Source of the DNA: Caldimicrobium sp.
GTDB lineage: Bacteria; Desulfobacterota; Thermodesulfobacteria; Thermodesulfobacteriales; Thermodesulfobacteriaceae
Reading direction: 5' to 3'
Length of the DNA: 41,878 nucleotides
Assembly (NCBI GenBank): GCA_025059715.1
Contig: JANXCE010000019.1
Location: 1 to 41,878, forward strand
In this document: piece by piece, positions 26,560 to 30,433 of the stretch
How positions within the stretch are numbered: position 1 is the first letter of the stretch
Layout: the number at the start of each line of letters is the position of its first letter
The notes under the pieces: generated by a model
Database searches by the model: none
What the model saw: only the letters and a program-made list of their open reading frames with translations
What the model was told of the DNA's origin: nothing
Made by a program: the position numbers and the translations under genes

Positions 26560-27216
26560 CTAAAATTCCTGATCAAAATTATTAAGTGGACAAAGGGGGC
26601 ATTGGGGATTTTGTTTCTTACAATAGGTCTTACCACAGGCAACTAAAAGGGCGTGATATTCCTGGAATAAATTAAGATCTCTTTCTAAATTACTATGAAA
26701 AAATTCCTGTAATTCCTGATAACTAATAATTTCTGGCACTAATCCATGACGATACATTATTCTATGAGTGTAAGCATCAACTACAAACACAGGAATTTCC
26801 AAGGCGTATAATAAAATTGAATCTACTGTTTCTGGACCTAACCCTTTGATTGAAAGTAATCTTTCTCTGAGTCTTGAAGGCTCTTCCTTTTTGAGGTTTT
26901 CCAAGGCACCCTGATATCCCTCTACTATAAAACTTACAAAATTCTTCACTCTCTTTGCCTTAATATTGTAATATCCACAGGGACGAATTAACCTTGCTAA
27001 GTCCTCTAATGGACAATGATATAGAGCCAAGGGAGATAGGAGTCCCTCTCTCTTAAGATTTTGTATCGCCTTTTCTACATTTTGCCAATTGGTATTTTGA
27101 GTCAAAATCGCTCCTATACAGATCTCAAAGGGACTTTCCGCAGGCCACCAACCCTGAGGGCCAAAGTGCTTAAAAAGCCTTTCATAAATTCCATGCAAAA
27201 GGTCTCTACTACTCAC
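26560..27216 (-). CDS. HhH-GPD DNA glycosylase, endonuclease III-related, lacking the catalytic Lys
   Basis: 218 residues from a GTG start that overlaps the fusion gene's stop by 8 nt. The fold is clear: FEICIGAILTQNTNWQNVEKAI, a helix-hairpin-helix IKGLGPETVDSILLYAL, and the catalytic Asp in FVVDAYTHRI. In endonuclease III the HhH reads GVGRKTA, where Lys is the Schiff-base nucleophile; here the position is Glu (GPET), as in the COG2231/MagIII-like branch. It is therefore probably a monofunctional glycosylase, possibly for alkylated bases. Four C-terminal Cys (C-x4-C-x6-C-x2-C in ACGKTYCKKQNPQCPLC) could hold an Fe-S cluster, but the spacing differs from the usual C-x6-C-x2-C-x5-C. Confidence 0.85.
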   Translation of the reverse strand: MSSRDLLHGIYERLFKHFGPQGWWPAESPFEICIGAILTQNTNWQNVEKAIQNLKREGLLSPLALYHCPLEDLARLIRPCGYYNIKAKRVKNFVSFIVEGYQGALENLKKEEPSRLRERLLSIKGLGPETVDSILLYALEIPVFVVDAYTHRIMYRHGLVPEIISYQELQEFFHSNLERDLNLFQEYHALLVACGKTYCKKQNPQCPLCPLNNFDQEF

Positions 27217-29533
27217 AAATAAACCTAAGAACCTTCGTTCCCTTTGCAGTATCGTATACCCTAAAACCCTTAGCTATCAGTATCTCTCTTATACGGTCCG
27301 CTTCTTCAAAATCTCCCCTCTCCTTTGCATTATCTCGTATTTTGGCAAGTTCCAAGATCTCCCTTTCCTTTGGTTCAATAGGTAGGGCTAAGATTTTAAA
27401 GACCTCGTCAAATTTTCGTAATCTTTCCCACAGCGCATCTTTAAATCCAGGTGGAAAGCCCCCTTCGCTCTTGCGATAGAGGCTCTTTAGGCAGTTAAAG
27501 AGTTGAGATAAGGCTGAGGGAGTGTTAAGGTCTTCCTCCAAAGCAGACAACCATCCAGTTTCAAATCCTTCTAATATGCCCCAAAGTTCTTCCCTTTCCC
27601 ACTCACTTAAAGCTCTTTCATCTGCAAAATATATATAAGCCAAATAGGTTTCAAGTTTATCAATAAGTTTCTTTATACCCTCCATAGCCTTCCAAGTAAA
27701 ATTAAAGGGGCTACTGTAATGACTTTGAAGCATATATAACCTTAAAACCCTTCCTTCATAACCTTTCCTTTTCACATCTTCAATGGTCACCCTATTTTCT
27801 GAGGAAATTTTCTTACCCTCATAATAGGTAAGATCCGTGTGAAGCCAGTAATTAGCTAACTCCTTTCCCGTTAAAGCCTTAGAGATAACCCGTGTATTTT
27901 CATGATGGGGAAATAGCAGATCCTTACCACTGGTGAATAAATCAAAATTATCACCAAGGTATTTAAGCGCAATAGAGGCACAATGAATATGCCAAGTTGG
28001 CCTAACCCTTCCAATAGGTGTCTCCAGAAAATATCCTGCCTTCATCTCTAAAATATGAACCCTCTTTAGTAAAGCAAAGTCATAGGGTTCCTCCTTTTCA
28101 TATTCCTCTTGATCCACCCTAAGCCCTTGCTTTAGAGTTTTGAAATCTACTTTGGCAAGTCTTCCATAGTCTGGAAACCTTGAAACATCAAAATAAAGGG
28201 AAGAAAACTTCTCATAGGCTCTGTTTTGCTCATAGAGTTTAAAGGCAATCTCTTGCATCTCCTTTAGGTGATCACTCACTCTTGGATACGCCTTTGCTTT
28301 ATCAATCTTAAGAAACTCAAGATCTTCATAAAATTCACTTTCCACTTTTGAAGTGAGCTCCTTGAGAGAGACTCCGAGTTCTAAAGCAGACCTGATTGTT
28401 TTATCATCAAAGTCCGTAAGATTAACAATATGAATAGGGTCATAGCCCTTTAGTTTTAGATATCTTTTAAGTATATCCACAGTGAGTAATCTTCTATAGA
28501 GCCCCAGATGAGGTCTCATATTTAAAGTAGGGCCACAGGTGTATATTTTCACTAAAGGAGGCTCCTTGGGCAGAAAAACTTCTTTTTTTTGGGTCAGGGT
28601 ATTGAATAGAATTAATTCTCTTTTTTGTTCTACCCTCTCAAAACACCATAGAGAAGTTGAGAGATATCGTTCGCCACTGTCAGGAAATATCACTACCACA
28701 AAACCCTCTTCTAATTCCTCTGCAAGTTTCAGAGCTCCGGCCAAAGCAGCCCCTGAACTCATTCCTACAAAAATCCCTTCCTCTTTAGCAAGACGCCTTG
28801 CCATCTCAAAGGCCTCATCATCATGAACATTTATCACTTTATAAAGGAGTTTTCTTTCAAAAATTCCCGGAGGGAAAGACTCTTTCATATTTTTCAAACC
28901 CTGTATTTTGTGACCTGGATAGGGCTCTACTCCCACTACTTTAAAGGGTAGCCCCTTCTCTAACACAAAACGGGCAATGCCCATAGCAGTGCCCGTGGTT
29001 CCTAAACCACAAACAACATGGGTTACCTGACCCTCGCTTTGTGACCATATCTCCGGTGCTGTGGTGCGATAATGCATCTGCCAATTGGCAGGATTGTTAA
29101 ATTGATCTGGACAAAAATACCTCTCAGGCTCTGCCCTTACTAAATCATACACAAACTCTATAGCACCATCAGTCCCTTTAGAGGCTGGAGTAAGGATAAT
29201 TTCTGCACCAAAAGCCTGCATTATCTTTCTTCTCTCCACAGAGGCAGACTCAGGCATAGCAATGACACATTTGTATCCCTTTGAGGCACAAACCATAGCA
29301 AGTCCTATTCCCGTATTACCACTAGAGGCTTCGATTACGATTTTTTGGGGAGTAAGTAACCCCCTTTTCTCAGCATCCTCGATCATTGAGAGGGCAATTC
29401 TATCTTTTATCGAACCACCTGGATTTTGCCCCTCAAGTTTACCCCAAATCTCTATGGAACTCTTGACTTTAATCTTATTTAGCTTAACAATAGGAGTATT
29501 GCCAATCTTAGCTAATATATTATGAAAGCGCAT
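27209..29533 (-). CDS. Fusion of cysteine synthase and cysteinyl-tRNA synthetase-like domain
   Basis: 774 residues in one uninterrupted frame; ATG with AGGAGG 8 nt upstream. Residues 1-300 are a PLP cysteine synthase: PLP-binding Lys43 in GGSIKDR, SSGNTGIG (70-77), GLGTTGTAMG and SSGAALAG. Residues about 306-774 are a full-length CysRS-like domain with YTCGPT (zinc ligand Cys333), WHIHC (Cys518), PHHEN (His543) and a C-terminal DALR/RIREIL..GF tail. Departures by eye from canonical CysRS: HIGH reads HLGL (342-345), KMSKS reads KISSE (575-579), and the fourth zinc ligand (E. coli Glu238) is Thr547. It may make cysteine and activate it, but normal tRNA charging is doubtful. It heads an operon with the glycosylase and transporter genes. 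The ATG overlaps head-to-head with the L,D-transpeptidase start. Confidence 0.93.
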   Translation of the reverse strand: MRFHNILAKIGNTPIVKLNKIKVKSSIEIWGKLEGQNPGGSIKDRIALSMIEDAEKRGLLTPQKIVIEASSGNTGIGLAMVCASKGYKCVIAMPESASVERRKIMQAFGAEIILTPASKGTDGAIEFVYDLVRAEPERYFCPDQFNNPANWQMHYRTTAPEIWSQSEGQVTHVVCGLGTTGTAMGIARFVLEKGLPFKVVGVEPYPGHKIQGLKNMKESFPPGIFERKLLYKVINVHDDEAFEMARRLAKEEGIFVGMSSGAALAGALKLAEELEEGFVVVIFPDSGERYLSTSLWCFERVEQKRELILFNTLTQKKEVFLPKEPPLVKIYTCGPTLNMRPHLGLYRRLLTVDILKRYLKLKGYDPIHIVNLTDFDDKTIRSALELGVSLKELTSKVESEFYEDLEFLKIDKAKAYPRVSDHLKEMQEIAFKLYEQNRAYEKFSSLYFDVSRFPDYGRLAKVDFKTLKQGLRVDQEEYEKEEPYDFALLKRVHILEMKAGYFLETPIGRVRPTWHIHCASIALKYLGDNFDLFTSGKDLLFPHHENTRVISKALTGKELANYWLHTDLTYYEGKKISSENRVTIEDVKRKGYEGRVLRLYMLQSHYSSPFNFTWKAMEGIKKLIDKLETYLAYIYFADERALSEWEREELWGILEGFETGWLSALEEDLNTPSALSQLFNCLKSLYRKSEGGFPPGFKDALWERLRKFDEVFKILALPIEPKEREILELAKIRDNAKERGDFEEADRIREILIAKGFRVYDTAKGTKVLRFICE

Positions 29534-30433
29534 AGAAGTTGCCTCCTTTTCTACCTTGTCCTATTGTATCTTACTTTATCCTTCTCACAAGGGTTGTGCT
29601 TTACACCCCTTCTTCCCAAAAAAGCTATTTACTTTCAAAACGCGATATATAAAATCAAGGAAAAGGAAACTTTAGTTGATCTTGCAGTCTCCTTTAGATT
29701 AGGCTACAATGCCCTTATTTTAGCAAATCGAGAATATGATCCCTGGATCCCCCCTACAGGGGCAGAAATTATTCTACCCTTTCAAATCTTAATTCCTCCT
29801 AATTTTATCCTTCCATTAAAGCGATATATTCTGATAAATCTTCCTGAGATGCGTCTTTATTACTTCCAGGAAAATAAGTTTTTGGTTTTTCCCATTGGAA
29901 TTGGTGACGAAGGAAAACTACCACCCCCGGGCTTCTACTACATAAAAGACAAAAGGGTTAATCCCTTCTGGTATCCTCCAGAGTCTATCCGAGCTGAGGA
30001 CCCAACCTTACCTAAGGTTGTGCCTCCGGGACCAGATAACCCCCTTGGTGAATATGCCCTTTATTTAAATAAAGGCTTATATGCTATCCACGGCACCAAT
30101 AAACCTCACAGCATTGGTAGACGCACCACTCACGGTTGTTTTAGACTTTATCCCGAACACATCGAACTTCTCTATCATTTAACCCCACTCAAAACCCCAG
30201 TTTATATAATTTCCGAACCCTACAAATTAGCTATCGAAAAAGACATAATATACTTACAAGCCTTCCCAGATCTTGAAAAAAGACAAAACAACCCTTTAAG
30301 CCATATCATCCGAACGCTTGATGCCCTAACCGTAAAAGAGGGTTTAAACTATCAAATCAATCTATTAAAGCTTGAACAGATTTTAGAAAACCCAGATGGA
30401 TTAGTGCACAAAATTGGAGTCCTTAAGAGATAG
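29522..30433 (+). CDS. L,D-transpeptidase (YkuD) with LysM-like domain
   Basis: 303 residues. A signal peptide (CLLFYLVLLYLTLSFSQG) is followed by a LysM-like segment (YKIKEKETLVDLAVSFRLGYNALILANRE in parts, about residues 42-75) and the YkuD domain: IHGTNKPHSIGRRTTHGCFRL with His190, His204 and catalytic Cys206 (the THGC form of SHGC). It would form 3-3 peptidoglycan cross-links or attach proteins to peptidoglycan in the periplasm (ErfK/YbiS type). The ATG at 29522 has no ribosome-binding site, and the fusion gene's start on the other strand overlaps it by 12 nt. No better in-frame start keeps the signal peptide. The 3' end overlaps lpxC by 11 nt, convergent. Confidence 0.9.
   Translation: MKAHRSCLLFYLVLLYLTLSFSQGLCFTPLLPKKAIYFQNAIYKIKEKETLVDLAVSFRLGYNALILANREYDPWIPPTGAEIILPFQILIPPNFILPLKRYILINLPEMRLYYFQENKFLVFPIGIGDEGKLPPPGFYYIKDKRVNPFWYPPESIRAEDPTLPKVVPPGPDNPLGEYALYLNKGLYAIHGTNKPHSIGRRTTHGCFRLYPEHIELLYHLTPLKTPVYIISEPYKLAIEKDIIYLQAFPDLEKRQNNPLSHIIRTLDALTVKEGLNYQINLLKLEQILENPDGLVHKIGVLKR

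Follow-up and report, generated by a model that had tools for sequence, protein, structure and literature searches.

Why would an enzyme that makes cysteine be built into one polypeptide with a cysteinyl-tRNA synthetase (CysRS)-like domain? The question is raised by a gene in the window, a 41,878-nucleotide stretch of DNA from an assembly of 1.84 Mb with close affinity to Caldimicrobium, of the Thermodesulfobacteria. The gene (product P0001) runs uninterrupted from an ATG at 29533 to a stop at 27209 on the minus strand, and the linker between its halves is almost nil, with the synthase ending in GERYLSTSLW and the CysRS-like half starting a few residues on. Because the same fusion recurs in 156 of 395 sampled Desulfobacterota genomes (99 of 245 genera), the fused frame is attributable neither to chance nor to misassembly. 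For the family comparison, 86 distinct fused proteins were extracted. E. coli CysRS numbering follows a reference sequence whose motifs fall where they should and which is consistent with the 1li5 alignment. The features discussed are as follows.

27209..29533, minus strand: fused gene, 774 codons; open frame, with homologous fused frames in 156/395 genomes of the phylum
29542..29547, minus strand: ribosome-binding site AGGAGG, about 8 nt upstream of the fused-gene ATG; read directly
28646..29533, minus strand: cysteine synthase half, CysM-type, residues 1–296, catalytic residues intact; PF00291, TIGR01136 and residue invariance in 86/86
28892..28894, minus strand: Lys214, at the presumed position of M. 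tuberculosis CysM Arg220; Lys in 86/86 fusions
27224..28621, minus strand: CysRS-like half, residues 305–770, including the anticodon-binding domain; TIGR00435 and AF2 model against 1u0b
28535..28537, minus strand: Cys333 (E. coli Cys28), zinc ligand by alignment; retained in 72/86
28499..28510, minus strand: degenerate HIGH motif, HLGL, residues 342–345, by alignment; second His in 4/86
27980..27982, minus strand: Cys518 (E. coli Cys209), zinc ligand by alignment; retained in 76/86
27905..27907, minus strand: His543 (E. coli His234), zinc ligand by alignment; retained in 86/86
27893..27895, minus strand: Thr547, replacing the fourth zinc ligand Glu238, by alignment; Glu in 49/86
27797..27811, minus strand: degenerate KMSKS motif, KISSE, residues 575–579, by alignment; E. 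coli Lys269 position retained in 2/86
27296..27337, minus strand: anticodon-reading stretch R733, K737, F742, D746 (E. coli R423, R427, W432, D436); conserved in kind in 86/86

Pfam and NCBIfam profiles place the N-terminal half among the cysteine synthases: PALP (PF00291) matches residues 8–285 (E 1.7e-77), the TIGR01136 match exceeds the family cut-off, and the nearest solved structures are those of enterobacterial CysM. The PLP lysine (K43), the SGNTG loop and the GT.GT phosphate cup that mark CysK/CysM enzymes are all present in the fused protein and invariant in 86/86 fusions; mean pairwise identity of this half across the family is 0.64. Its catalytic residues are shared with M. tuberculosis CysM, an O-phosphoserine sulfhydrylase, as is a basic residue at the Arg220 position, the differences being Lys for Arg220 and the presence of the CysRS-like domain. 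Arg220 is reported to bind O-phosphoserine (Agren et al. 2008); by comparison with the CysM sequence, we take Lys214 to be its counterpart.

The C-terminal half is CysRS-like over its full length. The TIGR00435 cysS profile is covered from position 1 to 465 of 466, at 321 bits against a cut-off of 340, and tRNA-synt_1e (PF01406) matches residues 324–619 (E 4.1e-75), with a weak DALR_2 match. An AF2 model of the window protein contains both folds (mean pLDDT 81.6, pTM 0.60), with the anticodon domain at pLDDT about 90–93, and aligns with the E. coli CysRS–tRNA complex 1u0b over residues 306–771 (Z 39.7). No coupling path was seen between the halves, since at this pTM their relative orientation is unreliable. 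The domain thus shares fold, length, anticodon domain and most zinc ligands with canonical bacterial CysRS (TIGR00435), but has eroded ATP motifs, an attached synthase, a clade of its own and a coexisting canonical copy. In place of HIGH and KMSKS, the window protein has HLGL and KISSE, and across the family the H40 and K269 positions are kept in only 4/86 and 2/86. The KMSKS loop is fully replaced in several members (EKNI in L165, KDAWPEKI in L141), and the HGGG glycines are mostly gone (G225 retained in 1% and G226 in 9% of fusions).

The zinc site has decayed less evenly. All four canonical ligands (C, C, H, E) occur together in 46/86 fusions, the window protein not among them, and C, C and H together in 72/86; both cysteines are absent in 10/86. 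The window protein also has Phe for His224 and is, by alignment, one of the more eroded fusions. At the other end, HxG and K..K/R are still present in 18/86, for example as KMSRS in L127 and L137, least-derived members that also carry the zinc ligands; on these motifs, weak cysteine activation might persist in the 18. The second His of HIGH is also missing from certain class I synthetases that are active. Residues invariant specifically among fusions (P335, R348, R491, with K498 in 98%) suggest, from the alignment, a reshaped pocket. W205 and H206 are nearly or fully invariant. In a subgroup comprising L015 and L175–L180, both zinc cysteines are gone and so is the KMSKS loop, but the anticodon-reading residues are still there; judged by these positions, its members are the clearest pseudo-synthetases in the family. 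The AF2 model of the zinc-less L015 is weak (mean pLDDT 72.8).

These results bear out the first-pass annotation in its description of the gene: a single 774-codon frame (the strand is added here) holding a complete PLP cysteine synthase and a full-length CysRS-like domain, with HLGL, KISSE and Thr547 at the eroded positions and Cys333, Cys518 and His543 still present. Its caution that such motif variants might be common in ordinary CysRS can be dismissed for this phylum, where the canonical copies have C, C, H, E, H..H and K..K in 19 of 19 aligned sequences (a twentieth extraction, in the wrong frame, was left out). It had also proposed looking for a separate cysS, and one is present in the window's genome: a gene on contig C66, scoring 438 bits, that encodes HLGH, KMSKS and the complete set of four zinc ligands. 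The fused domain is therefore free for another role.

What has been kept points to that role. E. coli CysRS contacts G34 of tRNA-Cys through R423, R427, W432 and D436 (PMC12684709). The corresponding positions are R, R/K, an aromatic residue and D in 86/86 fusions, including those without both zinc cysteines, so that by the presence of an anticodon-binding domain with G34 readers every fusion resembles canonical CysRS. R439 is likewise invariant and D451 is found in 85/86; near the C-terminus W458 (45%) and T456 (44%) are less conserved, and overall the C-terminal region has drifted, with a mean pairwise identity of 0.29–0.42. For close pairs, dN/dS of the CysRS-like half is 0.05–0.10, with 0.22 for one diverged pair, and it is 0.077 for L141/L159, in which KMSKS is gone. 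These codon comparisons show the CysRS-like half to be under purifying selection; taken with the motif loss, they mean that it is constrained, but not on its catalytic signature. In E. coli CysRS, functional coupling of the anticodon site with the catalytic site has been reported (PMC9976931).

We therefore favor, at a probability of roughly 0.5, the reading of the C-terminal half as a tRNA-Cys-binding pseudo-CysRS through which the synthase is regulated, since this reading best fits the retention of tRNA reading, the loss of activation, the intact synthase and the canonical cysS elsewhere. The PLP half would combine sulfide with an activated serine, probably O-phosphoserine, to give cysteine. 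Judged from sequence, the CysRS-like half descended once from a CysRS and then lost its ATP-activation chemistry and, in some lineages, its zinc site as well, while its GCA-anticodon-reading residues were retained. We infer that tRNA-Cys, perhaps when uncharged, repositions the domain on binding and moves synthase activity up or down, so that cysteine supply would follow translational demand; in members with a zinc pocket, cysteine itself may add end-product feedback. The fusion is unlikely to charge tRNA, with the least-derived members as possible exceptions, and the anticodon domain might instead recognize a different RNA or be retained for folding. The fuller proposal, that the pseudo-CysRS senses tRNA-Cys, and perhaps whether it is charged, and gates the making of cysteine as an ancient, phylum-wide device replacing CysE control, we put at somewhat short of even odds.

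A partial parallel is provided by HisZ, a HisRS paralogue and the regulatory protein of the ATP phosphoribosyltransferase HisGS (PMC9734150). The likeness lies in a synthetase paralogue attached to the biosynthetic enzyme for its own amino acid and proposed as its controller, and in both cases synthetase motifs have been lost beside a canonical copy. HisZ is a class II paralogue and a separate subunit with histidine as effector, and tRNA binding lies outside its known mechanism. The fused domain, in contrast, is class I, covalently joined and predicted to take tRNA as its likely input; by analogy, then, the fusion is HisZ-like in spirit, yet outside the HisZ family.

The HisZ parallel can also be turned toward a cysteine sensor that needs no tRNA, in which the pocket binds free cysteine as a zinc thiolate and feeds back on the synthase, the anticodon residues serving the fold. 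The C, C, H set in 72/86 fusions, H234 in all and the near invariance of W205 and H206 fit such a sensor, as does the HisZ precedent (PMC9734150), with its histidine feedback on HisG. We nevertheless regard it as unlikely, because the 10/86 members without both zinc cysteines still have the G34-reading set, and because folding alone should not fix charged and aromatic G34 readers amid so much C-terminal drift. The same 10 members undo, family-wide, the idea that the function retained is to bind zinc and a thiol. Universal anticodon reading would equally suit a supply unit, in which the domain charges tRNA-Cys, or holds it for the free CysRS, and so channels cysteine to translation; the zinc ligands and KMSRS of L127 and L137 lend this some color. 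Yet Lys269 is lost in 84/86, the loop is replaced in many, a canonical cysS is present, and the window copy combines HLGL, KISSE, Thr547 and the Phe substitution, which together leave the supply unit a rather poor prospect.

MshC, which like the fused domain is a CysRS-derived paralogue, was named in the first-pass annotation as a possible parallel, with tRNA as the other candidate acceptor: an MshC-like domain would activate cysteine with ATP and join it to a small molecule or protein. Similarity of fold to MshC (3c8z, Z 37.4) and the presence of three of the four zinc ligands in most members speak for such a ligase. However, MshC retains KMSKS and HIGH (PMC9736012) and is without an anticodon domain, the reverse of the fused domain, in which the motifs are eroded, the KMSKS lysine survives in 2/86 and the anticodon is read in 86/86. 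The structural alignment with 3c8z stops at residue 716, before the anticodon domain, the TIGR03447 score is 142 bits against a cut-off of 485, and there is no biosynthetic gene cluster, neighbor families being shared by at most 11 of 60 loci. An MshC-like ligase is thus improbable, and of the earlier interpretation the real fusion, the eroded ATP motifs and the second cysS are supported, but not the MshC-like activation and handover of cysteine.

Two further readings, both highly improbable, give tRNA-Cys a different part. The PLP half might convert a serine derivative on tRNA-Cys itself, in the manner of SepCysS, as the fusion of a PLP enzyme to a likely tRNA-Cys-binding domain and the frequent lack of cysE might suggest; but the SGNTG loop, which in CysK/M enzymes binds the free carboxylate of the substrate, is invariant in 86/86, and no SepRS scored above the cut-off in 30 genomes, which gave weak matches only. 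Alternatively, the domain could be the dedicated partner of a selC*-type tRNA-Cys, like CysRS* of Desulfobacterales, which, according to Mukai et al. 2017 as reviewed in PMC7609411, is without an anticodon domain, active on selC* tRNA-Cys and encoded beside selC*/selB*. CysRS* is, as the fusion is, a second CysRS-like gene in the same phylum, and selC*-like tRNA-Cys (GCA) occurs in two fusion genomes. The fusion, however, has the anticodon domain that CysRS* is without, is nearly universal in its order and does not sit beside selC*/selB*; no tRNA-Cys lies close to it at 60 loci, and the subset of tRNA-Sec-like matches checked in the window's genome were tRNA-Ser and tRNA-Leu. On the features tested, the fused domain is outside canonical CysRS, MshC and CysRS*. 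The two selC*-like genes, L220 in G030 and L225 in G057, have a GCA anticodon and score both as tRNA-Cys and as tRNA-Sec, and L213 in G010 is similar in sequence and uncalled by ARAGORN. A strict tRNA-Cys pattern, itself too strict, gave no match in the window's genome.

The metabolic setting bears on why the pseudo-CysRS regulator would have been added. Cells hold cysteine, a toxic metabolite, under tight control, and the classical route is feedback on CysE. No cysE was detected in the window's genome at E 1e-3, and a second CysK-like gene (C6:35936) is 46% identical. In a phylum-wide sample of 54 fusion genomes surveyed for cysE and CysK/M at cut-offs of E 1e-25 and 1e-40, 27 combine cysE with a single additional CysK/M protein, 26 lack both, and the remaining genome shows just a weak cysE-like match; the fusion is accordingly the only CysK/M protein found in about half, and there it operates with no enzyme for making O-acetylserine in sight. 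Comparison of fusion with non-fusion genomes for cysE gives a Fisher p of 0.05, a weak value that ignores kinship. Three Caldimicrobium-group genomes, the window's own (G000), G001 and G005, have the extra CysK-like gene and no cysE, and are exceptions to the both-or-neither pattern. The frequent lack of cysE, together with the single lysine Lys214, is why O-phosphoserine is proposed as the probable substrate. It is more heat-stable than O-acetylserine, which suits hot environments. Its producer is SerC (PMC9855970).

Where CysE is absent, the classical point of cysteine feedback is absent too, which offers a reason for the added domain. With many fusion-bearing bacteria lacking CysE, the fusion is a direct candidate for limiting cysteine in sulfide-rich anaerobes. 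If the regulator reading is right, a biosynthetic enzyme controlled by direct binding of its tRNA would tie metabolism to translation in an unusual way. The family also offers a natural record of synthetases in decay, with tRNA reading outlasting catalysis, and it carries a warning for annotation, as fusions labelled cysteine--tRNA ligase are probably not synthetases.

When 43 fused domains are placed in one tree with 20 canonical CysRS, the fusions form a single clade with support of 100, set apart by a long stem of 1.14 changes per site, and the data therefore fit a single origin followed by long vertical retention. Among 60 relatives, the fusion is present, whole or in part at contig ends, in every genome of the window's order but one, a 70%-complete assembly. 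Farther afield it occurs in 3/193 genomes of the phylum that contains Myxococcales, and searches of 246 genomes from the phylum of a Nitrospirota assembly and of 33 assorted others returned none; run without a positive control, these two bound the spread only loosely. No paper on the fusion was found in the open-access literature (a catalogue entry may exist), and a review of synthetase duplication gives CysRS* and MshC as the only CysRS paralogues (PMC9437257).

Operon context was considered as a pointer to a partner and rejected: no neighbor family is common to more than 11 of the 60 fusion loci compared, and the context yields no partner because the housekeeping neighbors differ by lineage. 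No tRNA genes lie in the window. A YkuD-type transpeptidase gene (29522–30433, plus strand) diverges from the fused gene and overlaps its start by 12 nt, and a gene of this family adjoins the fusion in the opposite direction at 9/60 loci. On the other side, a HhH-GPD base-excision glycosylase gene (26560–27216, minus strand) overlaps its end by 8 nt, and the same family adjoins the fusion on the same strand at 8/60. In one single-contig genome (G054) the fused frame of L109 breaks near residue 590 and resumes in another frame, through either a real frameshift or a sequencing error.
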